A DNA stretch of 21,055 nt, from the IMG/VR virus record IMGVR_UViG_3300025646_008632, positions 1 to 21,055 of that record. One strand, 5' to 3'. Positions 3 to 17,395 of the stretch are shown piece by piece. The translations under genes were made by a program, and so were the position numbers. The stretch comes from a virus. Under the pieces are notes generated by a model. It searched no databases. It saw only the letters and a program-made list of their open reading frames with translations, and was not told the origin of the DNA. How positions within the stretch are numbered: position 1 is the stretch's first letter; every line of letters begins with the position of its first letter.

Positions 3-221
3 CCTTATTTCCCACCGTTCTTCCCACCGTTCTTCCCTCCGTTCTTCCCACCGTTCTTCCCGCCTTATTTCCCGCCGTTCTTCCCACCATTCTTCCCGCC
101 ATATTTCCCACCATTCTTCCCTCCATTCTTCCCACCATTCTTCCCACCGTTCTTCCCGCCATATTTCCCACCATTCTTCCCGCCATTCTTCCCACCATTC
201 TTCCCGCCTAGATTTAAGTGA
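3..221 (+). CDS. C-terminal end of a (PPFF)n-repeat structural protein, partial
   Basis: This is the last 72 codons of a gene that begins upstream of the window and stops with TGA at 219-221. The reading frame spells sixteen full four-residue units PPFF or PPYF, then ends PPRFK. The frame is chosen because the 12-base units differ mostly at third codon positions of Pro (CCA/CCG/CCT), while the only amino-acid change is Phe to Tyr. The other two forward frames show less ordered substitutions and one stops at 209. Pro/Phe-rich low-complexity C-termini of this kind occur in virion or fibre proteins of marine phages, from memory of such annotations. Its position upstream of the oxygenases and the fibre genes at the other end of the window support a structural role. 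Function beyond that is inference. Confidence 0.6.
   Translation, partial: PYFPPFFPPFFPPFFPPFFPPYFPPFFPPFFPPYFPPFFPPFFPPFFPPFFPPYFPPFFPPFFPPFFPPRFK
12..209 (+). repeat. 12-bp tandem repeat coding for PPFF/PPYF units
   Basis: A 12-base unit (CC-N-CC-N-TTC-TTC, with some TAT-TTC variants) is repeated sixteen times without interruption from 12 to 203, plus a final Pro-Pro. Variation sits at wobble positions, which points to protein-level selection rather than a selfish DNA repeat. Confidence 0.85.
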
Positions 222-284: not shown

Positions 285-917
285 ATGAATGAACAGTCTG
301 AAAAATCACTTATAGAACCTGGATACTTTGGAAATTCTATTGACAATATAGTCATAGAAAAAAACTTCGTTGAAGAAAAAGATCTGATCGTTCTTCAAGA
401 GTTTCTCCCCAACATTGATAAATGGGAGAATCCAATGGAAGATGAGTATAATGAAGATGGAACTTGCACCTATGACTCCAGCTATTGGTGGGATAGAATG
501 TGCTCCGGTAGAATACTGCAAGAATTAAATCCAGATATATTTAACCTAATAGATAAATACATAAAGAAGATGCAGAATCTTCTTGAGGTTAAATTTTCCG
601 TGGAGTTATACCAAAGACCACCAGTGCTGGTTAGGTGGTTGCCGGGAAACGAGCAGCAACCTCATGCTGATAAGCAGTTGAACGATGGTTCGCCAAACCC
701 TTTTCCAACATATGATATTAATTCTATTATATACTGGAATAGTGATTTTGAGGGTGGTCAATTTTATTATCCTGAATTTGATATAGAACTACAAATAGAA
801 GCGGGTATGGCGGTAGCCCATCCTGGCGATATACATTATTTACACGGTGTTAAAAAGATGATATCTGGCGAAAGATGGACAACGCCATCTTTTTATACCA
901 TAACTAATATTCTATGA
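285..917 (+). CDS. Fe(II)/2-oxoglutarate-dependent oxygenase (hydroxylase)
   Basis: A 210-residue protein of the non-haem Fe(II)/2OG dioxygenase superfamily, in which two His and one Asp bind iron and an Arg binds 2-oxoglutarate for a substrate hydroxylation. Visible motifs are H127-A-D129, the distal H187 and R197 in the context G-E-R-W. A Gly-Gly-rich strand (FEGGQFYYP) of the double-stranded beta-helix lies between them. An in-frame TTG at 249 would lengthen the protein, but it lies in the loop of the hairpin and at the -35 position, so ATG 285 is preferred. No Shine-Dalgarno sequence precedes 285. The stop overlaps the next start (ATGA), so it is co-translated with the next oxygenase. Substrate unknown; the family includes prolyl and amino-acid hydroxylases. 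Confidence 0.85.
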   Translation: MNEQSEKSLIEPGYFGNSIDNIVIEKNFVEEKDLIVLQEFLPNIDKWENPMEDEYNEDGTCTYDSSYWWDRMCSGRILQELNPDIFNLIDKYIKKMQNLLEVKFSVELYQRPPVLVRWLPGNEQQPHADKQLNDGSPNPFPTYDINSIIYWNSDFEGGQFYYPEFDIELQIEAGMAVAHPGDIHYLHGVKKMISGERWTTPSFYTITNIL

Positions 918-1462
918 TAAAAAAAACAGTCTTTGATAAAGTTCATATAATCCATAATCTTTTTTCCAAAGAAGAACTTAGTGAAATAAGATTAGCTTTA
1001 GAGCAAGTAAAATGGCAAGAAGACCAAAATGGAAATCACATAGTTCAGGTTGAGTCTGTAGACAGTAGTATATTTCCACATGTAATAGATGCCTACAATT
1101 CTAAGGTTTCTATACTAAAATCTGAAATAGAAAAAGACTTCTTTTACAGTGTAGGAAGCGAAAATCATTCTGCCGTCGTAAGATATAGGGAGGGATGGGC
1201 ATTACACTCTCATGTTGATTCATGGTCTAATTTAAAAACTTTTTCAGGCTACCCTAGTAGAGACGTAAGTTCTTTGATATATTTGACTGATGATTTTAAA
1301 GGTGGTAAACTGGTTTTTAATGAATTAAAAATCGAAATAGAACCAATAGCTGGTTCTGCCGTTTACTTTCCTTCAGATGAAAAACACATACATGAAGTAA
1401 CGGAATTGATATCTGGAAATAGGTGGGTTTCTACCTGTTTTTGGCACCTTATAAAAGAATAA
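914..1462 (+). CDS. Fe(II)/2-oxoglutarate-dependent oxygenase, compact form
   Basis: A 182-residue single-domain 2OG oxygenase, little more than the catalytic jelly roll. The iron triad is H100-V-D102 and H160, and R170 (G-N-R-W) is the expected 2-oxoglutarate ligand. The strand pattern SLIYLTDDFKGGKLVF between the triad residues is typical of prolyl-hydroxylase-like members. The start ATG overlaps the upstream stop by four bases (ATGA) and no strong ribosome-binding site is visible, so translation is probably coupled. It resembles the upstream gene in the distal region (HGV or HEV followed by SG.RW), suggesting old paralogy. Substrate not predictable. Confidence 0.87.
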   Translation: MIKKTVFDKVHIIHNLFSKEELSEIRLALEQVKWQEDQNGNHIVQVESVDSSIFPHVIDAYNSKVSILKSEIEKDFFYSVGSENHSAVVRYREGWALHSHVDSWSNLKTFSGYPSRDVSSLIYLTDDFKGGKLVFNELKIEIEPIAGSAVYFPSDEKHIHEVTELISGNRWVSTCFWHLIKE

Positions 1463-1477
1463 GAAATAGGAGAAAAA

Positions 1478-2362
1478 GTGGAGTATTACAACCTGGGCGA
1501 CCCAAAATTGGGAATAAAAGTTTATCAAAATACAATCGATAAGGACGCCAATATACCAGCAAGACTGCACGCAGCTTTAGATGATAGTTCTCATCAATAT
1601 TTTAGGTGGCACGAATCTCTCGTTGGCGAAGGCGTAAAGATGCCAGATTATAGAGACTGTGTGGATTTTAAAATGGATGAATCCTATATATCTGGCACAC
1701 CAAAAGAATTTTCTGACATCATAGACATATATACAACAGTTGCAGACGCTCAAAAAGAATGCCTCAAAGACTATCAATCACAGTATAGCGTAAAAATGAA
1801 TTATATGGAAGCAATAAATTTTGTTAAGTATACGCCGAACCAACACTTCAGCGTCCATACTGATCATGGCTTCTCCTATATATGCACCATATCATGCGTA
1901 ACATACTTGAATGATGAATATGATGGTGGAGAATTGTATTTTCCTTATCTAGATCTAGAGTGGAAGCCAGAGTTTGGTGACTCGGTGTTCTTCCCTTCAA
2001 CATTCATCTTCGCACACTCGTCTAAGCCGGTTAAATCTGGCGTTAAGTATAGTGCTGTAACAATGTTCGACTACAACGACGATGCTCATCAGCACGGTGG
2101 ATTTTCTAGAGATTTTGGACACAACAACAATCAGCCATATGAACCAGCGGTTGTAGATAAAGATGCTCCTGTTGTTTATGGTTCTGGAGAACCAGTCTTG
2201 GTAAATAGATCTAATGTATCAATGGATGATAGTTCTCTTAGGGAAATAATAAGAGAAGAGATACAAAATTATGCAATGGAAAGCTGGAAGCAATGGCAAG
2301 CTAATGGTGCGGACATGTCAAACATGGGTAACTATCAGAAATACGTGGCCGGAGCAAAGTAA
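1478..2362 (+). CDS. Fe(II)/2-oxoglutarate-dependent oxygenase with Lys at the usual Arg site
   Basis: A 294-residue protein. The catalytic domain covers about residues 110-200, with H127-T-D129 and H180 as iron ligands and a GGELYFP strand between them. The usual C-terminal Arg that binds 2-oxoglutarate aligns with K190 (context S-G-V-K-Y-S), a conservative change that can still bind a carboxylate in some superfamily members. About 90 residues follow the domain: an Asn/His-rich linker and a probable helix near the C-terminus (LREIIREEIQNYAMESW). Translation starts at GTG 1478 behind AGGAG. The stop overlaps the following ATG (TAATG). Substrate unknown. Confidence 0.82.
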   Translation: MEYYNLGDPKLGIKVYQNTIDKDANIPARLHAALDDSSHQYFRWHESLVGEGVKMPDYRDCVDFKMDESYISGTPKEFSDIIDIYTTVADAQKECLKDYQSQYSVKMNYMEAINFVKYTPNQHFSVHTDHGFSYICTISCVTYLNDEYDGGELYFPYLDLEWKPEFGDSVFFPSTFIFAHSSKPVKSGVKYSAVTMFDYNDDAHQHGGFSRDFGHNNNQPYEPAVVDKDAPVVYGSGEPVLVNRSNVSMDDSSLREIIREEIQNYAMESWKQWQANGADMSNMGNYQKYVAGAK

Positions 2363-3087
2363 TGTCTAAGCTAACCTTAATAAGAACACATCAAATCTCG
2401 CCTGAGATAAAGCAGTCGAGACTGAAAAGAGACTGGATGGACGACACCTATAACAAACATGCTTATAGATGCCTTCCACTCAGTGCTGCAAATGTAAATG
2501 GATGGGAAGCCATTTTGCAGCAGGACGTTGTTGTCACTTGGGAAGGTGGCAACAGCGTCCCTAAAATCGTTGAAGGTGATACCTACAGAGGTAGAGCTAT
2601 CGCCAACTGTAATAAAATAGGTATGATTGATTTTCATATTGGTTGGGCGTTTAAGACGGAGCCAGGATTTCACACTTGGATTAGTGGTTCACCAAACTAT
2701 TTTATTGATGGGGCAGTTCCGCTTACGGCAAGTATACCTTCAGATTGGTGGCCTGATGAGGTTCAGGCCGGTTGGAAAATAACTAAAGTTAATGAACCAG
2801 TTGTCTTCCCAGCCGGAATGCCCTTTATATTCTTTATGGTATATCCGTCTAACCTAATGCCGGAGATGGAGATTGAAGTTGAATATCTTTGGGATAAGCC
2901 AGATCTTATGAACGAGAGAATGGCCTACAGTGACGCCAAAATGAAGAAGTTACGTGAAGAGCCTTGGACCTGGATGAATGGAATACGCACGGGTTTAAAC
3001 GAAAAGGGGGAGAGAATAGGTCCTAGACACGATAATCTACCTAAACTAGGGGAACCTGAGATGAAAGAGGTTGAATACAATGGATAA
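2362..3087 (+). CDS. DUF6065-like protein
   Basis: A 241-residue protein matching, from memory, the pattern of the DUF6065 family: an RDWMD motif (24-28), RCLPLSAANVNGWE (36-49), an FHIGWAF segment (91-97) with a TWISGSPN turn (105-112), a DWWPDEVQAGWKI segment (128-140), and an FPAGMPFIFF strand (149-158). The many Trp, Gly and Pro turns suggest an all-beta fold. Its biochemical function is not known to me. It starts at ATG in a TAATG overlap with the upstream oxygenase and has GGAG before it, so it is in the same operon. Co-occurrence with 2OG oxygenases suggests a shared pathway, but that is inference. Confidence 0.7.
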   Translation: MSKLTLIRTHQISPEIKQSRLKRDWMDDTYNKHAYRCLPLSAANVNGWEAILQQDVVVTWEGGNSVPKIVEGDTYRGRAIANCNKIGMIDFHIGWAFKTEPGFHTWISGSPNYFIDGAVPLTASIPSDWWPDEVQAGWKITKVNEPVVFPAGMPFIFFMVYPSNLMPEMEIEVEYLWDKPDLMNERMAYSDAKMKKLREEPWTWMNGIRTGLNEKGERIGPRHDNLPKLGEPEMKEVEYNG

Positions 3088-3361
3088 TATTCCAGCTAAA
3101 ATGAAAGTGATTACACCACTTGGTGATGAGGAGTTTTCTCTTGAGAAGAGTGAATCTAAATTAACCTTATCTATCTTTAAGGGCTCTGCTGATCTGAATA
3201 TAGTTATAGATGATGAAGACCTACTGTTGGCAGAGGGAGAATTAAATACGCCATTTGATTGTAGGTTAATTTTCTCCTTAGAGAAAGACAGATGCTTAGT
3301 AAAAATAGAAGATCCTACTTTAGATGAAGTCTATCTTGAATCAGTTTGTGAGGTCGCATAA
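3080..3361 (+). CDS. Small acidic protein of unknown function
   Basis: A 93-residue protein that I do not recognise. It is acidic (runs such as DDEDLLLAE near the middle) and rich in predicted beta strands, with no signal peptide or membrane segment. ATG 3080 is chosen over an in-frame TTG at 3071 because AAAGAGG at 3064-3070 sits at the right distance from the ATG. It overlaps the end of the upstream gene by eight bases and its own stop overlaps the next ATG (TAATG), so it is translationally linked to both neighbours. It could be an accessory subunit of one of them. Confidence 0.7.
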   Translation: MDNIPAKMKVITPLGDEEFSLEKSESKLTLSIFKGSADLNIVIDDEDLLLAEGELNTPFDCRLIFSLEKDRCLVKIEDPTLDEVYLESVCEVA

Positions 3362-3981
3362 TGTCAATATACGATGTAGAACTTAAGTCAATAGATGGTG
3401 AAGATAATTTTATGGAGCAGTTTAAAGGCAAGGTAACACTTGTGGTTAATACTGTTTCTAAGTTTAATTATGATCCCCAGTGTTCAGTTTTCTGGTCTTA
3501 TGCGAGAACGGTTAGGCATTTTTGGCAACTGCAGAAATTGCAAGAAGAGTTTGAGGACAGAGGTTTTAGCGTTGCAGGCTTTCCCTGCAATCAATTTGCC
3601 CAAGGCCTAATGGAATCTGGAACAAATGAGGAAATAAGCTCTTTTATGAAAGAAGTATATCCATTCGTAAAATTTCCTATTTCAGAAAAAATAGAAGTAA
3701 ATGGACCCAACGAGTGTGAAGTATATTCCCTTTTAAAGGGTAAAGCATTGAGAAATAAGTCTGATAATATGGCTGATAATTCACAGTCAGCTCAAGATGG
3801 CTGGAATAAAGAAGGTGCAGCCTTAGCAAGAATACCTCACTCATGGGAGATGTTTGTTGTAGGTAGATCAGGAACTCTAATAGGTAGATTCAATTGGCAG
3901 ACCATGCCGTTGGATACGGTTCCCCTCACCACTGGTGAAAGTTGGACAATTAGAGAATGTTTAGATGAAGTATTGGGTTAG
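3361..3981 (+). CDS. Glutathione-peroxidase-like protein lacking the catalytic Cys/Sec
   Basis: A 206-residue thioredoxin-fold protein of the glutathione peroxidase family. Family landmarks are a VVNTVSKFNYDPQ segment (28-40), aligned to the usual NVASxCGxTPQ loop, then GFPCNQF (73-79), GTNEEI (87-92), KFPISEKIEVNG (104-115) and a W162 segment (HSWEMFVV). The peroxidatic Cys or selenocysteine position aligns with F35. The catalytic Asn after the Trp aligns with E163. Gln78 and Trp162 of the tetrad are kept, as is Cys76 (the resolving-Cys region). There is also an insertion of roughly a dozen residues around 41-55, with a Cys at 41. It is therefore unlikely to be a canonical peroxidase and may have a new role or a relocated Cys. 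It starts in a TAATG overlap behind GAGG. Confidence 0.75.
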   Translation: MSIYDVELKSIDGEDNFMEQFKGKVTLVVNTVSKFNYDPQCSVFWSYARTVRHFWQLQKLQEEFEDRGFSVAGFPCNQFAQGLMESGTNEEISSFMKEVYPFVKFPISEKIEVNGPNECEVYSLLKGKALRNKSDNMADNSQSAQDGWNKEGAALARIPHSWEMFVVGRSGTLIGRFNWQTMPLDTVPLTTGESWTIRECLDEVLG

Positions 3982-4011
3982 TTACTATTACTATGATGCG
4001 TGGAGGTAATA

Positions 4012-4866
4012 ATGAGCCTAAGAAATTCTTTAATTCAGTCTAAAAAAAATAATGACAAAGAAAAGCTAGAATCATTAATAAATTCTCTTGGCTTAAGTCG
4101 GGATTTTTTTTGTGAACCTTATGATTTATTAATAAATTATTGGAACATTTTTAGACCAGAACCAAACGAAATACCAGATCATAAAGATGGTAGATTCTCT
4201 TCCTTTGTTTCGTTTTGGAAATCTAAGTCATTTATTGAAGGTGAATCTTACTGGATGGCTCACTCATGCTTCTGCGAAAATGCTACACTTCTACCCAATA
4301 ATAGTCCTTCGCTAAATGATAAGTTTTTTCCAGTTCTAATGGAAGAATATTATAATGAGGAAAATATTTTAAACTCCCTTATGTGGAATAGGGGAATTGA
4401 TAATGTCAAACAAAACACACAACTCATGCACTCGATAGACAATGAGGTAATGTTTATTCATGTTCTTGGGCACTCAGCTATAGCCTATGTTCACGCAGAA
4501 TCTAGGGAGTTTTGTGAGGACAGATATCTCACCCATCCGTACGCAACATCCTTTAGTACACATGAACTGTTTAAGCTGCTGCTTGAGTGGCAATGGGCAA
4601 GAAGAGAGTTGGGCTCATCAGAGCCAGTAGCAGTATTGGCCGATGAGTTCTTAAGTATTTTTGGTTTAGATTATTCTGATTCACAAAATAAAGTAGTATC
4701 AGATTTATTAAATCTGCCGGATCAACAGGTGGCTCAATATATTAAAACTGGATCAATAACAGTTAATGAACTATCCCCTGCCTGTCCCCAAAGTTTCCAT
4801 GACTGGCTTGCTAGTGTTGGAGATGTATTTTCTCTTATTAAGTATAGAGCAAATTCTTTAATATAA
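4012..4866 (+). CDS. Unknown protein, 284 residues
   Basis: I do not recognise this protein. It looks soluble and helix-rich, with many aromatic residues. A central His-rich stretch (FIHVLGHSAIAYVHAE, about 150-166) and clusters of Cys/Glu/His (HSCFCE near residue 80, REFCEDRY just after 166) could bind a metal, but I cannot match them to a family. GGAGG at 4002-4006 places the start at ATG 4012; an in-frame GTG at 4000 is less likely. About 30 bases separate it from the GPx-like gene and no terminator is visible between them. The C-terminal 60 residues look helical (SDLLNLPDQQVAQYI). Confidence 0.7.
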   Translation: MSLRNSLIQSKKNNDKEKLESLINSLGLSRDFFCEPYDLLINYWNIFRPEPNEIPDHKDGRFSSFVSFWKSKSFIEGESYWMAHSCFCENATLLPNNSPSLNDKFFPVLMEEYYNEENILNSLMWNRGIDNVKQNTQLMHSIDNEVMFIHVLGHSAIAYVHAESREFCEDRYLTHPYATSFSTHELFKLLLEWQWARRELGSSEPVAVLADEFLSIFGLDYSDSQNKVVSDLLNLPDQQVAQYIKTGSITVNELSPACPQSFHDWLASVGDVFSLIKYRANSLI

Positions 4867-4883
4867 TTAAATGTGAGGTTATT

Positions 4884-5075
4884 ATGTTTGATGCAAAAAT
4901 TAGGTCAATTGATTGGTTTAATCAATACATAGAAAGACTGTGCACGTCATTAGAATTAGATGTTAGTACAGTTTCTTCAGACATGGATATCCCCGTGTCT
5001 GAAGATGATAGATCCTACACTTCTTTTAAGTGTCTAAAAGATATGTTGACATTAAGAGATTCTTTAGGAGAATAG
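4884..5075 (+). CDS. Small unknown protein, 63 residues
   Basis: A short open frame with a good ribosome-binding site (TGAGG before ATG 4884). It starts 17 bases after the previous stop and is followed after one base by the next start, consistent with a real gene in the operon. The product is acidic, with two predicted helices (DWFNQYIERLCTSLEL and TSFKCLKDMLTLRDSL). No family recognised. Confidence 0.6.
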   Translation: MFDAKIRSIDWFNQYIERLCTSLELDVSTVSSDMDIPVSEDDRSYTSFKCLKDMLTLRDSLGE

Positions 5076-5076
5076 T

Positions 5077-5349
5077 ATGAAGAGATTTACCATTTCAAAT
5101 GATGGCGTAGAACATCTTCCTAAAGAGGCTGCAAAAACAACAAAAGATTTAACAGATTTAACCGACTCAGACAGAATCCTTCACGCTAGCGACGAAGAGC
5201 CTAACGAAAGGTATATTGACGACCTCGCCATAAAGTTTAATCCGCACTATGTGTCGTGGACATTAGAAGATAATCTTTCTTTTCTTTGTGTAAACTTAGA
5301 TGAAGAAAAGGTAGATTCCGAGAAAATAGAGGATAATAGATTAACATGA
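5077..5349 (+). CDS. Small unknown acidic protein, 90 residues
   Basis: It starts at ATG 5077 directly after the previous TAG, with AGGAG upstream, and its stop overlaps the next ATG by four bases. The product is hydrophilic and acidic with a low-complexity Thr/Asp stretch (TTKDLTDLTDSDR) near residues 25-38. No signal peptide, membrane segment or known motif is visible. Coding status rests on spacing, ribosome-binding site and tight overlaps. Confidence 0.6.
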   Translation: MKRFTISNDGVEHLPKEAAKTTKDLTDLTDSDRILHASDEEPNERYIDDLAIKFNPHYVSWTLEDNLSFLCVNLDEEKVDSEKIEDNRLT

Positions 5350-5663
5350 GTATTAGGGCTTTCGATCAGGCAGTTAGAACAAACTTGTATAACCCACTAA
5401 AGGACTATGAATACTTAAGGGAAAAACTTTTGGAGGTCCTATTGTTAGTTGGTTACTCTGAGGATGACGTAGATTCAATAACTATTGACGAAATAGTAAA
5501 TTCAATACGTGAAACCTATCCATACATTAGAGTTGATAACACTAATGATTTCAACACAGAAAGTGAATTGGTATTAAAAGAGATGAGTATTCTTTTGGTA
5601 ATGAATATCAGAAGAATATGGTTTAGATATAACTTGGCAAAGGTGGCTCTCGAAAATGGATGA
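5346..5663 (+). CDS. Unknown helical protein, 105 residues
   Basis: It begins in an ATGA overlap with the gene upstream and overlaps the next gene by eight bases. The product is predicted mainly helical: YEYLREKLLEVLLLVGY near residues 19-35 and LVLKEMSILLVMNIRRIW near 75-92 are amphipathic or hydrophobic helices. The second could be a membrane-associated segment but is interrupted by charged residues. No family recognised. Its place between other unknown genes gives no clear functional hint. Confidence 0.6.
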   Translation: MSIRAFDQAVRTNLYNPLKDYEYLREKLLEVLLLVGYSEDDVDSITIDEIVNSIRETYPYIRVDNTNDFNTESELVLKEMSILLVMNIRRIWFRYNLAKVALENG

Positions 5664-6399
5664 AGTATTAAACAATAAAACATTAATAACCAATATAATT
5701 ACAAAAGAATCAAGTTCATATTCGTGCTTGGAGCTGGATTATGATTACTGGGAAGTAATGGTGGATGCAGCTAACCTAATAAGCTCCTATTGGACATCTA
5801 TAAATACCGACAAAAGAAGTATAGCCGTTGGTGCAGATTTCTATATACATGTTTGGGATTTGTATGTTGGAGACATTACTGGATGGAGAGAACAAAGTTA
5901 CATATCCGGTGGCATCTACGCTCAAATGCTATGCGATATTCTTCAGCCCAATAATGTTCTTATATCTTCTCCTGATCGGCACTTTGATTTGGTGGCGCTA
6001 CTTTCCCAGAGAGGATGTAATTTAACATTTTTAAATAATGAATGTCTTTACAATTTTGAAAATTTTGTTAGAGACCTACAATCATATCCTTTCGATATAC
6101 AGTATTCCGCAATAGATTATCAAGATATTTTAGACTCTACAACAGAGCAGTATGACTTCATGCATCTTCAATCATCCGATGCTATTATCGATCTGAACCT
6201 AGTTGATGCCTACATAAATTCCCTTAACTCAGGTGGCGTGATATACATGCCACACGCTAATGAAAATGGTAGACTTTATGGGGAAGATTATTTTATTGAA
6301 CCAATAGTTCCCGTGTTTGATAAGTTCTTGGATAATCCAAATATGTATTCATATCATATTCCAAATACAATAGGATTCCAGGTGGCAATTAAAAAATAA
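5656..6399 (+). CDS. Unknown protein, possibly a degenerate Rossmann/methyltransferase-like fold
   Basis: A 247-residue protein with alternating alpha/beta character: VLISSPDRHFDLVALLSQRG (94-113), a later strand YDFMHLQSS followed by a helix, and GGVIYMPH (about 194-201) near the C-terminus. This order resembles the last strands of class I SAM-dependent methyltransferases, but the glycine-rich SAM loop is not recognisable. The assignment is weak; an unrelated alpha/beta enzyme is equally possible. It overlaps the previous gene by eight bases and is followed after 15 bases by the P450, so the two are probably co-transcribed. Confidence 0.6.
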   Translation: MDEVLNNKTLITNIITKESSSYSCLELDYDYWEVMVDAANLISSYWTSINTDKRSIAVGADFYIHVWDLYVGDITGWREQSYISGGIYAQMLCDILQPNNVLISSPDRHFDLVALLSQRGCNLTFLNNECLYNFENFVRDLQSYPFDIQYSAIDYQDILDSTTEQYDFMHLQSSDAIIDLNLVDAYINSLNSGGVIYMPHANENGRLYGEDYFIEPIVPVFDKFLDNPNMYSYHIPNTIGFQVAIKK

Positions 6400-6414
6400 T
6401 TGGTTATTTAAAAT

Positions 6415-7662
6415 ATGATTGATGTAACTAATAGCTCTTCTTGGATATATAGTCTTTATTCTAATAGCGAAGATAGATTACTAAGAGACAGTCTCTTTTC
6501 GGAACTAAGAAAAAAAAATCAACTCATCTATTATGAACCATACACTTTTCCTAAGGCGAACGTAGATTTTGGTTCTGGATTCCATGCTGTAGTAAACTAT
6601 GAAGATGTGGAAGCTGTAAGTCGAAATCCATCATTGTTCTCCTCGGCTAAAGGTACCAATATACCAAACTTACCTTTAGATGTTTCTAGATTCTTTGGCT
6701 CCATGGTAAATATGGATGACCCTGAACACTTCAAAATGAGAGCAATAATATCTAAGGCATTTACACCAAAATCTATAACTCTAACAGAAGAAAATGTAAA
6801 ACTAAAAGTTCAGCAAGTTATTGGGGAAATGGTAGAAAATAATCCATCTGGTAAGTGTGACTTTGTTAAGAATTTTTCATCTAGAATTCCAATGGAGTTT
6901 ATTTGTGAAATGATGGACATACCAACTCAAGATGTAGCTGAACTTAATGACTATACAAATAGGGTAGCTGGACAAATGGACCCTGATTTTGAAATGACAT
7001 TTGATAATATTATTGAGTCGGCATACGGCGTTTTCGAATATGCGAAGCGCTTTGCAGAACTCAAACTAAAAGATCCTGGCGAAGATCTAACCAGTGCAAT
7101 ACTGCATGCAGAGGTTGATGGAGAAAGAATTTCCCTTGATGATTTCTGTTCATTTTTTCTATTACTGGTAATGGCCGGAGGTGAGACTACTAAGAATGTT
7201 ATTAGTCATGGTCTTGATTTTTTAACAAAAAACCCTGAGCAGAGAGAAGATTGGTTTAATAATTTTGAAGACTTAAGTAAGTCGGCAATTGAAGAATTGG
7301 CTAGGTATAGTACTCCAGTTATACACTTTAGAAGAACTGTAACAGAAGATTGTGTATTAAAAAATACTCAATTAAAAAAGGGTGATAAGGTAGTTATGTA
7401 TTACCTTTCTGCTAATATGGATGAAAATTATTTTCATAACCCTATGAAGTTTGATGTAAGAAGAAGTTTTGAAAATAGGCAGTTTTCTTTTGGTGCAGGT
7501 GGTCCACATTTCTGCCTCGGTGCAAATTTAGCCAGAAGACAGATATATCATTCTTTCAATGAATTACGTAAACAGCTCCCTGAAATTTGTTCAGTAGAAG
7601 AACCTTCATATCTAAGAAGTGAATGGGTGAATGGTATAAAATCTCTAAACTGCGAGTGGTAA
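6415..7662 (+). CDS. Cytochrome P450 monooxygenase, complete
   Basis: A 415-residue soluble bacterial-type P450, of normal length (about 400). Motifs are all in place: MDDPEHFKMR (100-109) before the C-helix; the I-helix oxygen-activation motif AGGETT (254-259); ExxR of the K-helix (E294-R297) followed by a PVIHFRRT segment; and the haem-binding loop FSFGAGGPHFCLG (357-369), with C367 as the thiolate ligand. The loop GGPHFCLGANLAR resembles bacterial P450s of the CYP125/CYP142 type that act on sterols or other lipids, but that is too little to fix a substrate. P450s of this class need ferredoxin and a reductase, and neither is encoded in the window. There is no clear Shine-Dalgarno before ATG 6415. 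P450 genes are rare in phages. Confidence 0.95.
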   Translation: MIDVTNSSSWIYSLYSNSEDRLLRDSLFSELRKKNQLIYYEPYTFPKANVDFGSGFHAVVNYEDVEAVSRNPSLFSSAKGTNIPNLPLDVSRFFGSMVNMDDPEHFKMRAIISKAFTPKSITLTEENVKLKVQQVIGEMVENNPSGKCDFVKNFSSRIPMEFICEMMDIPTQDVAELNDYTNRVAGQMDPDFEMTFDNIIESAYGVFEYAKRFAELKLKDPGEDLTSAILHAEVDGERISLDDFCSFFLLLVMAGGETTKNVISHGLDFLTKNPEQREDWFNNFEDLSKSAIEELARYSTPVIHFRRTVTEDCVLKNTQLKKGDKVVMYYLSANMDENYFHNPMKFDVRRSFENRQFSFGAGGPHFCLGANLARRQIYHSFNELRKQLPEICSVEEPSYLRSEWVNGIKSLNCEW

Positions 7663-7674
7663 TTTTTGTAGTAT

Positions 7675-7685
7675 TATGCTATAAT
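7675..7685 (+). promoter_or_regulatory. Second copy of the extended -10 promoter motif
   Basis: TATGCTATAAT, identical to 268-278, lies in the 47-base gap after the P450 and 24 bases before the GTG of the next oxygenase. The predicted start at about 7692 leaves an 18-base leader containing AGAGG. No good -35 is visible. The exact 11-base identity in two of the few intergenic gaps supports a shared promoter class. Confidence 0.55.
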
Positions 7686-7709
7686 TTTGTTAAATAGAAA
7701 GAGGTCACA

Positions 7710-8825
7710 GTGTCTAATAATGTTCTAGAGGATCAAGTTCATGATCCCACAAGCGAAAATGAAGTTGGCAGAAGATATGTCGCTAGTTCAGCTTTTCCTG
7801 ATACACCAAAGCTGACGGATGAAGACATCAAAGAAATATCACAGTATCATGTTGAGGTAATTGGTCCTGGAATATTAGTTTTTCGTAACGTTCTCAAGTT
7901 TGATAGAGATCCAGTATTCGATTATCTAGATGAAATGGCTTCAATTTCTCACCATCACAGATGGGAGTACATTGAGGCTGAAGACGGTGAAAAATATGGT
8001 ATTAACGAAGATGGATTTAGGTATAGGCCAGAAGACATACCTGCTACACCCGTACGGATTCTTCATCCAATACACGATCAGACCCCAGATGTTGTGCGCG
8101 ACTTCTTTTTTGGCATGGAAGAAACCATATATAAATGCCTGATTAGGTATACAGACTACTACCCACTGATAGTAGGTTGCTTATGGTGGAGAAATCGTGG
8201 CCACATACTTAGATACGAAGGTGAAGGGGTTTTGGGTGCTCACTGTGATAACGACACCAACTACAAGGTTACCGAAGGTGTACGGTACATGCCGCGAGGA
8301 CAGATGGCAGCAAGACAAACTTGTGGAGCATTAGTTTACCTAAATGATTGTGTTGACACAGAGCAAGAGATGGATGGAAGAAATACATTTATGGGCGGAC
8401 ATCTACGATTCTTCCATCTGGACGTGGATTATAAACCTCAAAAGGGTGATATAGTATTTTTTCCAACTAATTATATGGCCTCCCACGAGGTTGATAGAAT
8501 GACTGGTGGAGTGAGATATAGTTATTTATCATTTTTTGGTCAGGGTTCCGGGCACGCCGAAGCAAACATTCAAATTGTTGAGCCGCAAGACTCAATCCAG
8601 TGGTGTCCCGCTATGTGGATGAACTCAATATACGATGACTACGAAAGATACTGTAAATCAGAACACTCAAGATTTACCACTGGAGAGGAAACCAATATAG
8701 GTATAAATCCAGTTTATCAGGGTAGATGCGTTGCTCAGTACGGTGAGACACACCAGGCAGAGAGTTTAAATATAGAGGATGCAGCTAATTGCGGTACTGA
8801 CCCGGTAATAATAGAAGAGGGTTAA
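7710..8825 (+). CDS. Fe(II)/2-oxoglutarate-dependent oxygenase, paralog array copy 1
   Basis: A 371-residue 2OG oxygenase, the longest of four tandem relatives. Iron ligands are H178-C-D180 and H259, with R269 (G-V-R-Y) for 2-oxoglutarate. Features shared with the next three genes are a GxGIxxF start of the domain (52-58), a YGINEDGFRY segment, a YYP...CLWW...GH motif (150-165) just before the iron site, and KGDIVFFPTNYMASHEV leading to the distal His. It alone has about 45 extra N-terminal and 80 extra C-terminal residues. It starts at GTG 7710 with AGAGG upstream, behind its own putative promoter. Substrate unknown. Confidence 0.88.
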   Translation: MSNNVLEDQVHDPTSENEVGRRYVASSAFPDTPKLTDEDIKEISQYHVEVIGPGILVFRNVLKFDRDPVFDYLDEMASISHHHRWEYIEAEDGEKYGINEDGFRYRPEDIPATPVRILHPIHDQTPDVVRDFFFGMEETIYKCLIRYTDYYPLIVGCLWWRNRGHILRYEGEGVLGAHCDNDTNYKVTEGVRYMPRGQMAARQTCGALVYLNDCVDTEQEMDGRNTFMGGHLRFFHLDVDYKPQKGDIVFFPTNYMASHEVDRMTGGVRYSYLSFFGQGSGHAEANIQIVEPQDSIQWCPAMWMNSIYDDYERYCKSEHSRFTTGEETNIGINPVYQGRCVAQYGETHQAESLNIEDAANCGTDPVIIEEG

Positions 8826-8828
8826 TTC

Positions 8829-9716
8829 ATGTTACCATTTGGTGCAGAGCCATTAGGTAGTGGTATAGTTTTATTTAAAAATAAAATCAATGTACCCGAT
8901 GAACTAACATCCTTCCTATATTCTCTTAAGGAAGAGTCTAAGGTAAAGCATTACTCTTATGTATGTGATGAAAATGGCAATCAAATATATGCGACTAACA
9001 AGAGTGGTCATAGGTTTAAGCTTGAAGATATAGACAAAAACTGTAGTAGAATAACAGATTTCTATGATTCTTGCACGCAAGACTGGCAGTCAGACTTTTT
9101 TAGGAGCTGCGAAAAGGCAATATACCAGTCAATGATCGAGTACGCATCGATGTACCCAATGGTGCTACCGTGTCTGTGGTGGAAAACCCATGGTCACGTT
9201 TTAGCGTACGGGCCAGGTTCAGATCTAGGTCTACATTGCGACAATGATATTAACTTCTCTCCTGGTTTTGAGCCAGACTTTCAGCTTGGTATACGTCATG
9301 TGCTGGCTGCAATAACATACTTTAACTCCTCAAAAGACACGGTAGATGACGATAACTTTGTCGGTGGAAAAATAACCTTCCCTTATGCTGGTGTAACATA
9401 TACTCCTGAAAAGGGAGACATTTTAATGTTTCCTGGAAACTACATGTGTGCTCATCAGGTAGATGAAGTATCTGCTGGTAACAGGTATGCATTTTTAGAA
9501 TATTTTGGTCAAGGATCCTCTGATCAGGATAGGGGAGTAAATATTTCATACCCCAGTCCCAATACAACTAGTGGTCAAACCTGGATGCCAGATTTATTTG
9601 AGGATTACAGAAAATATGTGATACAATATTATGGTGAAAGTTACGATGAACACAAACTACTTCCCGTTAATAGGGTATTTCATAGTTCAAACACAAAAAA
9701 AGAGGTGGCTAATTGA
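8829..9716 (+). CDS. Fe(II)/2-oxoglutarate-dependent oxygenase, paralog array copy 2
   Basis: A 295-residue 2OG oxygenase homologous along its whole length to its neighbours on both sides. H136-C-D138 and H209 bind iron, and R219 (G-N-R-Y) is the 2-oxoglutarate site. The N-terminal region carries GSGIVLFKN (10-18) and NKSGHRFKLED (57-67). The CLWW...GH motif precedes the iron site, and EYFGQGS ends the core as in copy 1 (FFGQGS). It begins three bases after the preceding stop with GAGG upstream. Closest to copy 1 by eye. Substrate unknown. Confidence 0.88.
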   Translation: MLPFGAEPLGSGIVLFKNKINVPDELTSFLYSLKEESKVKHYSYVCDENGNQIYATNKSGHRFKLEDIDKNCSRITDFYDSCTQDWQSDFFRSCEKAIYQSMIEYASMYPMVLPCLWWKTHGHVLAYGPGSDLGLHCDNDINFSPGFEPDFQLGIRHVLAAITYFNSSKDTVDDDNFVGGKITFPYAGVTYTPEKGDILMFPGNYMCAHQVDEVSAGNRYAFLEYFGQGSSDQDRGVNISYPSPNTTSGQTWMPDLFEDYRKYVIQYYGESYDEHKLLPVNRVFHSSNTKKEVAN

Positions 9717-10594
9717 TTTTCAATGATGTAGACGGCGAACATCTTGGTGGTGGCGTAGTTATCTTTCGTAATGCCGTAAGCTATGACTTTGATTGGACTT
9801 ATGAAATCTTTTGTAGAGCCCTTGATGAAGAGCACGCCGACATGTATACTTTAACTAATGACCCTGAAACGGGTGATGAAATATACCTAAATAAAAGTGG
9901 GTATCTATTCAGCAAGGAGTCTGTAGACTCAATGCCCAGAAGAGCATCTATGATGCACCAGGATGGTAGAGAGGAAGTTCATACTCTATTCGATTTCTTA
10001 GAGAACTCAAAAGATAAATACCTATTAAAATACTTTGAGATGTTTCCCTTGGCATATAACTGCGTATGGTGGAAGGTTAAGGGCCATGTAGTGTCCTATA
10101 AAGAGGGGGTTTACCTGGGTAGTCACTCAGATATAAGCGCTGAGTATATCTATGGTGTCCACCAGACAACCAATGAGTTAGCCCTAAGAAATGTTGTTTC
10201 CTGTATAGTCTACGTTAACTCTTCTGTGGATTCGGAGGATGAATTAGATGGAAATAATTTCACTGATGGTCATCACTATTTTAATTATTTAGATATCGAC
10301 TACAAGCCAAAAGCTGGAGACATAATGATGTTTCCATCCAATTACGTCGCAGCCCATGAAGTTAAACCAGTTGGAAAGGGGCATAGGGTTAGCTATCTTG
10401 GCTGGTATAGTCAGGGAACTCCTAATCCAAGTGTTTATGAGGCTGTGTGCGATCCATTAAAAGAGCCAGAGCTAGGTAAGATTAGTACAAACGTTTACCT
10501 TCCAACGCTCAGAGAAGATTATAGATCCTATTTAATTTCTAAGGGATATGATGAATCTTCAGATCAGTTTAAGGTTACCAATTTAAATACGTGA
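9713..10594 (+). CDS. Fe(II)/2-oxoglutarate-dependent oxygenase, paralog array copy 3
   Basis: A 293-residue member of the tandem family with H138-S-D140 and H215 as iron ligands and R225 (G-H-R-V) as 2-oxoglutarate ligand. It shares GGGVVIFRN (12-20), LNKSGYLF (59-66), NCVWW...GH (116-125) and KAGDIMMFPSNYVAAHEV (200-217). It must start at TTG 9713, because no in-frame ATG or GTG lies near. AGAGGTGG at 9701-9708 is well placed, and the start overlaps the upstream stop (TTGA), so reinitiation is likely. The middle of the iron motif is Ser rather than Cys as in copies 1, 2 and 4. Confidence 0.87.
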   Translation: MIFNDVDGEHLGGGVVIFRNAVSYDFDWTYEIFCRALDEEHADMYTLTNDPETGDEIYLNKSGYLFSKESVDSMPRRASMMHQDGREEVHTLFDFLENSKDKYLLKYFEMFPLAYNCVWWKVKGHVVSYKEGVYLGSHSDISAEYIYGVHQTTNELALRNVVSCIVYVNSSVDSEDELDGNNFTDGHHYFNYLDIDYKPKAGDIMMFPSNYVAAHEVKPVGKGHRVSYLGWYSQGTPNPSVYEAVCDPLKEPELGKISTNVYLPTLREDYRSYLISKGYDESSDQFKVTNLNT

Positions 10595-10603
10595 GGTAAA
10601 GAA

Positions 10604-11383
10604 ATGAAATCAAAACATTTGGGTATGGGCGTGGTTCTCTGTGAGAATGTAATAGATATAGATAATGATCTTGTAAACGAATACACAGCCTGGCTTAAAA
10701 AAAACGAAGAAGACTCTTTTACTTATTACGAAGAAGATGGCGTAAGATATGCGAGAAATAAAACAGGTTTTAAGTTTAAATTAGATGATGTCAGTCTTGC
10801 GCCCCAAAGATTTCTTGATCTTGAAGGTAAAGAGGTTGATAGAGATCCTAAGCCAGAGTGGTTAGACTTTGTTCAGCAGTGCGAAGACGCTATATATACT
10901 GCTCTAGTTGAATACTGTAAGTATTTTCCAGACGCAGCTACAACTGCTTGGTGGAGACCTAGAGGTCACATAGCTGGATATGAAAACGGCCAAAATATTG
11001 GGGCACACTGTGATGATCAAATTCCTTGGGAGTGGAATAGTAGACCACAAAGCCAAGTATCAATGCATAACAGCACTAGTACAAACCTGTATTTAAACAC
11101 CTGCGGGAAAGATTATGAGGGTGGGGAAATCAACTTTCCTTCAATACCCTACTCATATGAGCCTAAGGCGGGCGATGTGATTATGTATCCGTCTAATTAC
11201 ATAGGTAGACATCAAGTGTTTCCTGTTACTTCTGGTAATAGATATGCGTTTTTAACAATGGCGTGCTATGGAGTTGATTTTAGCAATGAACAAGAAATTA
11301 TCGGCATGGAGAATCCCTACAAAATATGGATGCCCAATCTCATAAGAGACTCTATGGAAGGTGGTGTTAATGAAAGTTTATGA
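10604..11383 (+). CDS. Fe(II)/2-oxoglutarate-dependent oxygenase, paralog array copy 4
   Basis: A 259-residue, shortest member of the tandem family. H135-C-D137 and H203 form the iron site and R213 (G-N-R-Y) the 2-oxoglutarate site. The shared landmarks are GMGVVLCEN (7-15), RNKTGFKFKLDD (51-62), TAWW...GH (114-122), YEGGEINFP (171-179) and KAGDVIMYPSNYIGRHQV. The C-terminal extension of copies 1-3 is reduced. GAGG precedes ATG 10604, nine bases after the previous stop. Its end overlaps the next gene by 14 bases. Substrate unknown. Confidence 0.88.
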   Translation: MKSKHLGMGVVLCENVIDIDNDLVNEYTAWLKKNEEDSFTYYEEDGVRYARNKTGFKFKLDDVSLAPQRFLDLEGKEVDRDPKPEWLDFVQQCEDAIYTALVEYCKYFPDAATTAWWRPRGHIAGYENGQNIGAHCDDQIPWEWNSRPQSQVSMHNSTSTNLYLNTCGKDYEGGEINFPSIPYSYEPKAGDVIMYPSNYIGRHQVFPVTSGNRYAFLTMACYGVDFSNEQEIIGMENPYKIWMPNLIRDSMEGGVNESL

Positions 11384-12191
11384 TACACTGTCGCAGGATG
11401 ACATTGCGTCTAATATAGAAATATACAAAGATGATCTCCTAAATGAAAAAGTGCTATTTTTCAACACCGTAGAGTTGAGTCACGAAGAAATAGCAGATTT
11501 TTTGCCTCTACTAGATCAACAATGCACAGATCGTAGGGTGGAGTATTTGAATAATCAGCAGCATGAGGGGTTATTGAGAGCACCTTCTTCCATAACTGTA
11601 GATGAACAAGAAGATTTTGTTTTTAGGAACTGGCACTGTGACAATTCCTTAGCCGAGAATCCTCATTGTCAAATTCCAGTAATTATCTCTATGAGAATGG
11701 ACACTTTAAAGTGCGATAGGGATTTGAGTAAAACCCTTTTTGTAGATACAAAAAAGATGCTAGATAATGCTCCAAGAGATTTAGTGGACTGGATGAAAGG
11801 AACATATTTTATAGATTTAATGGGTTATGAAAATGAAGGTAAAATACCGTATGTTTCCAATGATGATTTAGTTAAGCCACTTAGAGCTTTCCCATCAATT
11901 ATGACACATGAGGTAACTGGTTTTAATCATTTCGTTTTAATGAGTCAGAAATATTCTTTTTTTCCTGAAAATAAAACTATGGAAGATAAATATAGGCTTT
12001 ATGTTAAAGATTATTTGAGTGATTATAATAACATGGACATCATCACATGGAATGAGGGATCTCTAGTTGTTTGGGACAACAGAAGTGTTATACATTCTTT
12101 TCAAGCAGGGTGGCAGGATGATGAAAGAATCTTTACAAGATATCAGTTTGGCTTTACGTTACCCTTCTATAGGCCAGAGGAGAGCATGTGA
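11370..12191 (+). CDS. TauD/TfdA-like Fe(II)/2-oxoglutarate dioxygenase
   Basis: A 273-residue protein of the TauD/TfdA/clavaminate-synthase branch. H89-C-D91 (RNWHCDNS) and H242 (VIHSFQAG) are the iron ligands, and R257, fifteen residues after H242 as in TauD, is the 2-oxoglutarate ligand. The GSLVVWDNRSVIH motif (230-242) is characteristic of this branch. ATG 11370 is preferred over in-frame GTGs at 11361 and 11364 because GGAAGGTGG at 11355-11363 then serves as ribosome-binding site. It belongs to a different branch from the four preceding genes. Members hydroxylate taurine, small acids, amino acids or natural products, so the substrate is open. Confidence 0.87.
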   Translation: MKVYDTLSQDDIASNIEIYKDDLLNEKVLFFNTVELSHEEIADFLPLLDQQCTDRRVEYLNNQQHEGLLRAPSSITVDEQEDFVFRNWHCDNSLAENPHCQIPVIISMRMDTLKCDRDLSKTLFVDTKKMLDNAPRDLVDWMKGTYFIDLMGYENEGKIPYVSNDDLVKPLRAFPSIMTHEVTGFNHFVLMSQKYSFFPENKTMEDKYRLYVKDYLSDYNNMDIITWNEGSLVVWDNRSVIHSFQAGWQDDERIFTRYQFGFTLPFYRPEESM

Positions 12192-13063
12192 AAAATTATT
12201 TAGGTTTAGATATACCAGAGTACAGAGTTACTTTAGATGATGCTCTTAGCAGCATAGACTTCTATGCAGAAGAGTTTACGAAAAATGGAATCTTAATATT
12301 TAAAGAAATGAATCTAACAGAAGATGATCAACTACTACTTCTAAGCACTCTGGGTGATATTTTAGGATGGTTTCCTAATAGTCAAAACAAATTTCATGGT
12401 AAGTATATAGAGGATCATACTGAGTTATTGAATAAATATAAATCATCAGGCCAGCCTAATACTCCTGATGAAATTATTTTAGCATACCATTTAGAGTGCA
12501 CAAACTACGAGGTTCCACAGGTTGCTTCGGCGTGGAATATGACAAAGTTTGATTGCGATAGTTATTCTGGAAAAACTTCTTTTATAGATTCTAGAATTGT
12601 GTTTAATAAATTAACCAATAAAGAAATATCATTCCTATATAATTGTTTAATTGCTCATATCCATAGTGGCGTGATAGAAGAAGGTAAATTTATACATCCG
12701 CATGAAGCAATTTCTAAGCACCCCCTTTATGACTATGACTGTCTTCGCATCGACGCAAAAGGTCCTAAGTATCAAAAGCTTCATAAGTTTAAGGGTAAAG
12801 ACCCAGGTACTATAAATAATATAAGATATAAAAGACTTGTATATAAAATACACGATACCATTAAGGAGTTGTCTAATTCGGAATGCTACTGGCATAGCTG
12901 GTCTAAGGGGGATGTAGTTATTCCTGATCTAAATGTAATGTATCATGCAGTTAGAGGTGGCTTTACTTATGGTCAAAGAGAATTCGTTGGGTTTTGGGCT
13001 TTTCCTGAGAGCGAGAAGTCTATGCAGCAATTTGAAAACGACATGCATATATTGTGCAATTAA
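12188..13063 (+). CDS. TauD/TfdA-like dioxygenase with an HxE iron motif
   Basis: A 291-residue TauD/TfdA-branch protein. The first iron motif is H101-L-E103, with Glu in place of the usual Asp, and the distal His is H253 in GDVVIPDLNVMYHAVRGG. R264 is the likely 2-oxoglutarate ligand, eleven residues after H253. HxE triads are known in clavaminate synthase and in amino-acid oxygenases such as AsnO and VioC, so the enzyme is probably active. It starts at GTG 12188 in a GTGA overlap with the upstream gene, behind GAGGAGA. Pairing with the preceding TauD-like gene suggests successive oxidations, which is inference. Confidence 0.83.
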   Translation: MKNYLGLDIPEYRVTLDDALSSIDFYAEEFTKNGILIFKEMNLTEDDQLLLLSTLGDILGWFPNSQNKFHGKYIEDHTELLNKYKSSGQPNTPDEIILAYHLECTNYEVPQVASAWNMTKFDCDSYSGKTSFIDSRIVFNKLTNKEISFLYNCLIAHIHSGVIEEGKFIHPHEAISKHPLYDYDCLRIDAKGPKYQKLHKFKGKDPGTINNIRYKRLVYKIHDTIKELSNSECYWHSWSKGDVVIPDLNVMYHAVRGGFTYGQREFVGFWAFPESEKSMQQFENDMHILCN

Positions 13064-13076
13064 TTGAGGAGTATCC

Positions 13077-13760
13077 ATGATAGTTATAGATAACTTTATC
13101 AGAGATCAAGAGCTGATTTCTGATATAAAAAACGATGATAATTTTTTCCCTAAAGATATGGGCAGCATAGAAAACATTGGAGAGGTCAATAACTATTTTC
13201 ACGTAGAAGATGCAGATTGCTACGCACCATATATGTTTTGGGATGGTTGGTGGAAAAGTCCTGCAGATACTCTTAAGAAAAGAGTTGTTCAAGAAATATG
13301 GTCAAAGGATAACTTTCTTCCTTTTCCACTAGAAGAAGTATGTGGTTTTGAGTATTGGACTAGAACGTTTAAAGAAGGGCAATATCTCAGATTGCATGTA
13401 GACGAGGACACTTTTGCATATCAAAAAGATAAAACGTTTAACGCCCCTGCATATGGTTGTGTTTGGTATGGCTTTTCTCAGTCCGATAATCCGGGTTTCT
13501 TAGAGCTGCACGAAGGTGTGATTTCAGGTTACCCAGAAAATGCCCTTGAGTCAGAAAATATTGATCCATTAATATCTCCTCCAGAAAGAAGAGAGAGAAT
13601 AGCTCATAGGCCAAACAGGCTTATATGCTTCAATGCTGGTAGGCGCTTACATGAAGCTACACCAACAATGAGTGGCGTTAGGCAGGTTATGGTTGTGAAC
13701 GTATGGCACAAAAATAGTCCTCCAAGCGCCCTTATTTCTGGTGGATTTTATTATGAGTAA
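13077..13760 (+). CDS. Fe(II)/2-oxoglutarate-dependent oxygenase
   Basis: A 227-residue 2OG oxygenase unlike the tandem family in detail. H107-V-D109 (RLHVDED) and H192 (RRLHEATP) form the iron site and R202 (SGVRQV) the 2-oxoglutarate site. A long insert between them (about 135-180, Pro/Glu-rich) separates the strands. It has a consistent GAGGAG ribosome-binding site before ATG 13077 and follows the TauD-like gene by 13 bases. It is the tenth predicted 2OG oxygenase in the window and the last in this run. Substrate unknown. Confidence 0.85.
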   Translation: MIVIDNFIRDQELISDIKNDDNFFPKDMGSIENIGEVNNYFHVEDADCYAPYMFWDGWWKSPADTLKKRVVQEIWSKDNFLPFPLEEVCGFEYWTRTFKEGQYLRLHVDEDTFAYQKDKTFNAPAYGCVWYGFSQSDNPGFLELHEGVISGYPENALESENIDPLISPPERRERIAHRPNRLICFNAGRRLHEATPTMSGVRQVMVVNVWHKNSPPSALISGGFYYE

Positions 13761-13785: not shown

Positions 13786-14544
13786 ATGGAAAGATATTTT
13801 AGTTCAAATTTCTTAGTTAAAGAACAAGAGTGTAGCATAGGCGGCCTATGGGGTGGCTTATATCAGGCAAAATGCTTAGAGGCTTTAAGTTCGATAACAA
13901 GCTCTAAGGTGGTAACTCTTAATACGCAGATTGCAGATTCCTTAAAAAGTGGAAGTGAAGTCCAAGTAAATGTTGAGCAGATATATTCTGGTGGCGTAGA
14001 GCAATACCTTATAACATTCACAAGTGAATCTAAAGTAGTATCGACTACACAGGCCATATGTGGTTACAGTTTGTCTGATTACGATAAGCAGTTTAGCAAG
14101 ATGCCCGCCATGGAAGCGGTCGATGAGTGCAATGAGATGTTTTTCTTTGAATTGACACCAGAAACCGATATATTAAGAAGCTTTAAGACAAAATGGCCAT
14201 CAAAAAAACCTGATGGAGTAAAGGATAAATTATTCTGGGTAAAGTATTTGAATCAAGAAATTCCGCTTAGTCAACAATACTCTATTATATCAGATGTATC
14301 TTGTGCACTTCTCGGCATGCCGTTTAAGATGGGTGATTTGTCTTATTTGCTAAGTGTATCTAGTCATTATAATAGGGAGGTAGAAAGTGAGTGGTATTTA
14401 GCTTCAGTAGAATATATTTCTGCCAATGAAAATTTTCTTAATATGAGAACAAAACTTTATTCAAGTTGTGGAACTCTTGTCTGTACCTCTACTTCAACCT
14501 CTGTAATTACGACCAGTAGGCGCTTTGAGGATTCGGCTTCCTAA
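13786..14544 (+). CDS. Thioesterase-like protein, probable double hotdog fold
   Basis: A 252-residue protein resembling the acyl-CoA thioesterase-like (TesB/thioesterase superfamily) double hotdog. GGLWGGLYQAKCLEAL (19-34) matches the central-helix entry of the first hotdog. The strands VVTLNTQIADSLKSG and VQVNVEQIYSGGVEQYLITF follow. The second half repeats the plan, with a helix at ISDVSCALLGMPF (168-180), YLASVEYISA, and a final CGTLVCTSTS strand. D170 is at the position where such enzymes carry an active-site Asp. The likely role is hydrolysis or transfer of an acyl thioester. The assignment is from overall pattern, not a diagnostic motif. It follows the last oxygenase by 25 bases. Confidence 0.6.
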   Translation: MERYFSSNFLVKEQECSIGGLWGGLYQAKCLEALSSITSSKVVTLNTQIADSLKSGSEVQVNVEQIYSGGVEQYLITFTSESKVVSTTQAICGYSLSDYDKQFSKMPAMEAVDECNEMFFFELTPETDILRSFKTKWPSKKPDGVKDKLFWVKYLNQEIPLSQQYSIISDVSCALLGMPFKMGDLSYLLSVSSHYNREVESEWYLASVEYISANENFLNMRTKLYSSCGTLVCTSTSTSVITTSRRFEDSAS

Positions 14545-17379: not shown

Positions 17380-17395
17380 TTTATTGAGGTATATT

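Follow-up and report, generated by a model that had tools for sequence, protein, structure and literature searches.

The window analyzed here is the whole of IMG/VR viral record IMGVR_UViG_3300025646_008632 (21,055 b). It encodes ten Fe(II)/2-oxoglutarate (2OG) oxygenases and a cytochrome P450, which follow the end of a tail protein gene encoding an array of (F/Y)FPP units. A series of plus-strand genes fills nearly all of the window and several gene ends overlap (285-917 with 914, 8829-9716 with 9713, and 11370-12191 with 12188), and based on this arrangement the genes are likely co-transcribed. An earlier note on this DNA had described the ten oxygenase genes and the P450; all are present on the plus strand, and their families were confirmed by motif, Pfam and fold. 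The (F/Y)FPP repeat at 3-221 was missed by that note. The features of main concern are:

3-221, plus strand: (F/Y)FPP array forming the C-terminus of the tail protein encoded upstream; record L007 (1214-3343) contains the remainder of that protein
285-917, plus strand: 2OG oxygenase, prolyl 3-/4-hydroxylase (P3H/P4H)-like, of the family found nearest FFPP arrays
914-1462, plus strand: 2OG oxygenase (PF13640)
1478-2362, plus strand: 2OG oxygenase, P4H-like, second core family (PF13640)
6415-7662, plus strand: cytochrome P450, closest solved structure CYP124A1
7710-8825, plus strand: 2OG oxygenase paralog 1
8829-9716, plus strand: 2OG oxygenase paralog 2
9713-10594, plus strand: 2OG oxygenase paralog 3
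10604-11383, plus strand: 2OG oxygenase paralog 4
11370-12191, plus strand: TauD-type oxygenase
12188-13063, plus strand: TauD-type oxygenase with an HxE triad
13077-13760, plus strand: diverged 2OG oxygenase, recognized by fold

The iron-ligand triads claimed in the earlier note were found in all ten oxygenases as an HxD/E motif with a distal H and an R/K, and the family alignments of 285, 1478, and 13077 show no variation at these residues. In a profile hidden Markov model (HMM) check, the P450 and eight of the ten oxygenases exceeded the curated Pfam cut-offs, six of the latter with 2OG-FeII_Oxy_3 (914, 1478, 7710, 8829, 9713, and 10604) and two with TauD (11370 and 12188). The two below the cut-off were 13077, which has a sub-threshold match to 2OG-FeII_Oxy_3 (E 0.0099), and 285, for which there was no Pfam oxygenase match. 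The product of 285 does match phrog_2297 of the PHROG collection, named "DNA endonuclease", which also matches the clear 2OG oxygenases 914 and 1478. Such names are misleading for these proteins, as phrog_274 ("DNA endonuclease V") and phrog_3531 ("ferrochelatase") also match 2OG oxygenases.

AlphaFold models of the 285 and 13077 proteins had pLDDT values of 94.3 and 93.0, respectively. The best Foldseek match to the 285 model was the collagen prolyl 3-hydroxylase P3H1 (6.9e-11), with which it aligned by VIA over 178 residues (Z 17.2, 3.2 Å), the HIF prolyl hydroxylases being tied within 1. For 13077 the best Foldseek matches were WelO5 and PHD2 and the best match by VIA was a PHD-type prolyl hydroxylase (Z 12.5, 165 residues, 3.6 Å); in this fold comparison the prolyl hydroxylases were tied with small-molecule enzymes (WelO5, HrmJ, and BelL). 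As modeled, both proteins have the double-stranded beta-helix fold of 2OG oxygenases, so that eight of the ten are recognized by Pfam and the other two by confident models. By sequence, the best PDB relative of the 285 family was also P3H1 (E 8.8e-11), with PiuC and P4H among the closest, and the best solved relatives of the 1478 family were a bacterial P4H, the collagen lysyl hydroxylase LH3 and P3H1. For these two families the nearest proteins of solved structure are protein hydroxylases, and a prolyl hydroxylase function is possible. The genes from 7710 to 10604 encode four diverged paralogs (29-34% identity to the first) with only weak similarity to solved protein hydroxylases (PiuC, E 0.008), and no PDB relative of 13077 was found by sequence search.

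The full-length upstream protein is encoded in L007, a separate IMG/VR record that is 99.93% identical to the window over 16,694 b, which rules out a chimeric assembly, and that adds 3,125 b leftward. This protein has 710 aa and consists of a fibronectin-III-like region, 21 [F/Y]FPP units and then RFK. The same kind of protein is encoded directly upstream of the oxygenases in the relatives G002, G006, and G025, with Pfam finding fn3 in the G002 copy. We found 96 distinct arrays comprising 1,394 units (median 14 copies, maximum 35), and the N-terminal parts of their carrier proteins vary, having fn3, another Ig-like domain, or belonging to short proteins with no Pfam match. The first position of the unit is mostly F or Y and sometimes H, and the second is F in 1,345 of the 1,394 units. 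As the search pattern required PP and favored F/Y and F, these proportions characterize the arrays detected but do not test the motif independently. Sixty-three of the 96 arrays stop within 10 residues of the frame end. Across the arrays Pro is encoded by all four of its codons and Phe by both, an observation that is informative despite the bias of the pattern. With constant residues written in varying codons, conservation of the repeat is at the protein level, and an artefact of repeated DNA could be ruled out.

The association of the array with the oxygenases was determined by scanning viral contigs for any DNA that encodes [F/Y]FPP four times in succession, a scan that is blind to the neighboring genes, and by detecting oxygenases with HMMs built from those of the window and their relatives. 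At least 120 viral contigs matched, and the locus counts that follow are among the matches listed. Oxygenases were present on 76 of 108 repeat loci, and a 2OG gene lay within 3 kb downstream in 55 of the 66 loci whose downstream flank measured 3 kb or more. The density of 2OG genes was 6.29 per 10 kb downstream of the arrays versus 0.16 upstream. The median gap from array to nearest oxygenase was 72 bp over all loci, including those first found through 7710. In the same set, 70 loci extend 8 kb or more downstream, and 63 of them had 5-12 oxygenases. When loci were merged at 80% DNA identity, the link was kept in 38 of 46 clusters. In the reverse test, 52 loci were selected by 7710 and also carried a strong 285 homolog; 37 of them had an FFPP array, and 11 of the 15 array-less loci have less than 400 b upstream of the 285 gene.

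Chance occurrence of the oxygenase block can be excluded because 30 random viral loci, obtained as matches to a meaningless 15-mer, contained no oxygenases in 253 kb. As a further control, 9 of 47 collagen-repeat loci had a 2OG gene within 3 kb downstream, and at these control loci (L251-L369), which encode collagen-like (GPT)n fibers, the density was 0.62 per 10 kb downstream versus 0.04 upstream. Collagen-like phage fibers may be hydroxylated too; however, we rejected them as a general substrate since the enrichment there is about ten-fold weaker than at FFPP. Among 84,980 prokaryote genomes, the same FFPP pattern was present in only four contigs, three of which encode the same kind of array (in a Verrucomicrobiales and a Gammaproteobacteria metagenome-assembled genome), and two, L244 and L245, carry 285- and 1478-type genes.

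No hallmark gene was detected by PHROG among the window proteins. Relatives of 7710, however, occur on 70 viral loci on contigs of up to 210 kb, and most of these loci share the neighbors 285, 1478, DUF6065, a glutathione peroxidase (GPx)-like gene and the four paralogs. The block is probably phage-borne, as the earlier note had supposed, based on the 170-kb relative G025, which has the same module and encodes a portal protein, helicase, primase, and tail proteins. In the relatives G002 (86 kb) and G006 (45 kb) it lies among long tail-fiber-like genes. A bacterial biosynthetic locus was ruled out by these portal and tail genes and by the near absence of the FFPP pattern from prokaryote genomes. 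In 50,697 isolate phage records there was no match to the window DNA, no relative of DUF6065, 13077, or 17755, and only distant relatives of 285, 1478, and 7710. A search of 26 records for T4 Gp23 gave no match, which is uninformative as the control gave no signal either. The contig of relative G006 also encodes (C1:4350-6107, L092) a secreted-looking protein with long Thr-rich linkers, in a style which we take to be typical of marine Actinobacteria and which is a possible hint of the host.

The number of oxygenases in the block is less exceptional than the earlier note had held in calling their density far beyond what was known. Relatives commonly have 5-12 in the module, and the isolate S-SCSM1 has 24 2OG oxygenase genes per genome (PMC9602691) and S-CREM1 has ten (PMC9964418).

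The remaining genes of the window, all on the plus strand, are:

2362-3087, plus strand: DUF6065 (Pfam), a frequent partner at FFPP loci
3361-3981, plus strand: glutathione-peroxidase-like (profile match), active site apparently altered
5656-6399, plus strand: conserved partner without a family match, resembling a methyltransferase by eye only
13786-14544, plus strand: thioesterase-like (sub-threshold matches), accessory
14581-15654, plus strand: SGNH-hydrolase-like by eye only, no family match
15788-17230, plus strand: O-carbamoyltransferase family
17393-18531, plus strand: two proteins ahead of the fiber (17393-17755 and 17755-18531), conserved with the fiber in G002 and G006
18533-21055, plus strand: fiber with collagen-like and His/Asn-rich repeats that runs off the window, a possible second substrate

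The P450 is intact, as had been claimed, with complete FSFGAGGPHFCLG and AGGETT motifs (the former matching the heme-Cys pattern FxxGxxxCxG) and a PF00067 score of 82.8 bits. It aligns nearly end to end with CYP124A1 (E 8e-103), a member of the CYP124 family of omega-hydroxylases of methyl-branched lipids in M. tuberculosis; unlike CYP124 it is probably phage-borne, and no redox partner gene was recognized in the window. A tblastn search found no relative of this P450 in the isolate phage records, and a P450 was present in five of 31 records, one pair of which is the window and L007. Other P450s are carried in or near the FFPP-oxygenase module by the relatives G002, G005, and G026. The carbamoyltransferase, whose solved relatives make antibiotics, was found in four loci of the set surveyed for neighbors of 7710 relatives, and its use of hydroxyls made by the oxygenases is a speculation. 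The P450, TauD, and carbamoyltransferase genes are variable accessories, whereas the oxygenases are constant.

DUF6065, which has no meaningful PDB relative, is downstream of the FFPP arrays in 50 of 109 loci; other frequent downstream families are an unnamed family (27 loci), the GPx-like family (18), and the families of 5346 (12) and 5656 (11). Glutathione peroxidases usually read SKCG or SKUG at the catalytic position. The GPx-like protein 3361 matches the glutathione peroxidase profile and reads NTVSKFNYDPQC, in which, by eye, the usual position has no Cys, and L173 (9029-9658) reads IASKLGYEPKC; as judged from these sequences, the catalytic Cys of 3361 may be shifted or lost. The fiber at 18533-21055 has a collagen-like GNPGNPG stretch and His/Asn/Gly/Pro-rich repeats, being very rich in His and Asn, and has longer homologs in G002 (46541-49765) and G006 (33029-36400).

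Given the enzyme families, their folds and active-site residues, the phage context and the linkage to the FFPP gene, we consider it probable, with appreciable room for doubt, that the block is a fiber-modification module whose oxygenases hydroxylate the FFPP array and probably neighboring fibers. The window belongs to a widespread phage tail module that is apparently undescribed. From context and fold we infer the substrate, the modified residue, the order of steps and the physical effect as follows. The tail operon would end with a structural protein, fibronectin-III-like or with another N-terminal part, bearing a mostly C-terminal [F/Y/H]FPP array, and the several P4H/P3H-like Fe(II)/2OG oxygenases encoded directly behind it would hydroxylate that array, with the repeat peptide FFPPYFPPFFPP as the candidate substrate for the 285 and 1478 enzymes. 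The likeliest targets are the prolines of the PP pairs, possibly modified sequentially by P4H-like and then P3H-like enzymes. As P3H1 acts on prolines adjacent to 4-hydroxyproline, such a pair of enzymes acting on PP units is plausible. Aromatic residues of the array are perhaps hydroxylated as well, and neighboring repeat-rich fibers are probably also modified, before or during virion assembly; the core enzymes would act on the array and the remaining oxygenases on neighboring fibers or other residues. The P450, TauD enzymes, O-carbamoyltransferase, and peroxidase-like proteins may provide lineage-specific extra decoration or support. An unmodified Phe/Pro array would be very hydrophobic, and hydroxylation is predicted to alter its solubility, stiffness or adhesion. 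More tentatively, and with slightly less than even confidence, we suggest that a dedicated and widespread machinery of 5-12 oxygenases in uncultured tailed phages makes the Phe-Phe-Pro-Pro repeat of the virion a multiply hydroxylated rod or glue. This rod or glue could well carry hydroxyproline, possibly also dihydroxyproline or 3,4-dihydroxyphenylalanine (DOPA), and would then represent a new class of post-translationally built phage fiber, a proposal we would not yet favor over its negation.

Several observations weigh against the fiber-modification module. Of the FFPP loci whose downstream flank is 3 kb or longer, eleven have no 2OG gene within 3 kb, and while several of these have short or internal arrays, L211 and L168 have long ones (14 and 13 units) and lack a nearby oxygenase, which means that the link has exceptions. 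Single-linkage clustering at 70% identity reduces the loci to few clusters (link in 7 of 11); the loci are related, and therefore the counts overstate independence, with fewer independent cases than loci. For 5-12 enzymes, a single simple repeat would seem to offer too little substrate, and several of them must have other targets. Most structures solved in this branch of the superfamily are of protein hydroxylases, a bias that carries over to the fold matches, and the hydroxylated residues are predictions from context and fold.

The published view for cyanophages is that such enzymes serve host metabolism, in particular nitrogen metabolism (PMC3037559; repeated in PMC4164917, PMC9602691). On this view the targets of the oxygenases would be host metabolites or the level of 2OG (nitrogen signaling), and their genes would merely be cargo closing the tail operon, a position where cargo is common; cargo-like P450, carbamoyltransferase, and TauD genes do share the block. 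However, a mere cargo site leaves unexplained the 55 of 66 loci with oxygenases at a median gap of 72 bp behind one repeat protein, and the commonest nearest oxygenase families resemble protein hydroxylases, and so we regard this explanation as unlikely. A role in repair or modification of nucleic acids by AlkB/TET-like enzymes, as proposed for cyanophage prolyl-4-hydroxylase-domain genes beside uvsX/uvsY (PMC2984593), appears very improbable: the 285 family has weak Tet-like matches (E 0.03-0.04), but prolyl hydroxylases score far better and the neighboring genes are tail genes.

The earlier note had envisaged oxidative tailoring of either one scaffold or fiber proteins, of which the context favors the fiber proteins, with no positive support emerging for a one-scaffold small-molecule pathway. 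In such a pathway the oxygenases, P450, thioesterase-like protein and carbamoyltransferase would build or modify a lipid, glycan or peptide that might be bound to the virion or alter the host surface. The accessory genes could hint at such a product, since the P450 is like CYP124, a lipid hydroxylase family, the carbamoyltransferase has the antibiotic-making relatives noted above, and the 13077 fold is also near WelO5, HrmJ, and BelL. Yet no assembly enzyme (nonribosomal peptide synthetase, polyketide synthase, or maturase of ribosomally synthesized and post-translationally modified peptides) was recognized, and the P450 (five of 31 records) and carbamoyltransferase (few loci) are sporadic while the oxygenases and the FFPP gene are constant, making this somewhat less likely even than the host-metabolism explanation.

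If the array is indeed the substrate, a function would be gained for one common, unexplained gene family of marine phages, the 2OG oxygenases, which are usually filed under host metabolism; a tail repeat nearly absent from prokaryote genomes, to which they are linked strongly and in one direction, offers a concrete and cheaply testable substrate. Phage virions would then bear hydroxylated structural proteins, which would bear on adhesion, host range and biomaterials. Such proteins are known from animals, plants, and large DNA viruses and are not known to us from phages; among open-licence literature, no paper on the subject was found, nor any tying 2OG oxygenases to phage tail proteins.

Among known systems, the T4-like cyanophages S-SCSM1 and S-CREM1 have oxygenases of the same superfamily (PF13640, phrog_61), several per genome, although with only distant protein identity to those of the window and with a published role in host metabolism. 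In S-SCSM1, five 2OG-annotated genes are beside tail-fiber genes at 210-220 kb, and the short tail fiber gp127 (L370 33880-35145), also beside several 2OG genes, has a long Arg/Pro/Phe/Gln-rich low-complexity insert. This arrangement is compatible with fiber modification but proves nothing, and none of 15 S-SCSM1 proteins checked in one 49-kb stretch had an FFPP array. A structure-based survey found that phage proteins matched the human prolyl hydroxylase EGLN3 more often than any other human protein, and did so widely in phages of marine bacteria (PMC12774648).

The closest parallels are the collagen hydroxylases P4H, P3H1, and LH3, including vCPH of chlorella virus PBCV-1, although there the substrate is Gly-X-Y, whereas here it is presumed to be [FY]FPP, the carrier is probably a tailed phage of prokaryotes with many diverged oxygenases per operon, and the activity is a predicted one. 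The fold, facial triad and 2OG-binding basic residue are common to both, and they are also alike in their occurrence in viruses and in a repetitive, proline-rich structural substrate (presumed here). By analogy only, with no homology, the FFPP arrays resemble mussel foot proteins, in which tandem Tyr-Pro-Pro motifs are hydroxylated to hydroxyproline and DOPA and become adhesive.

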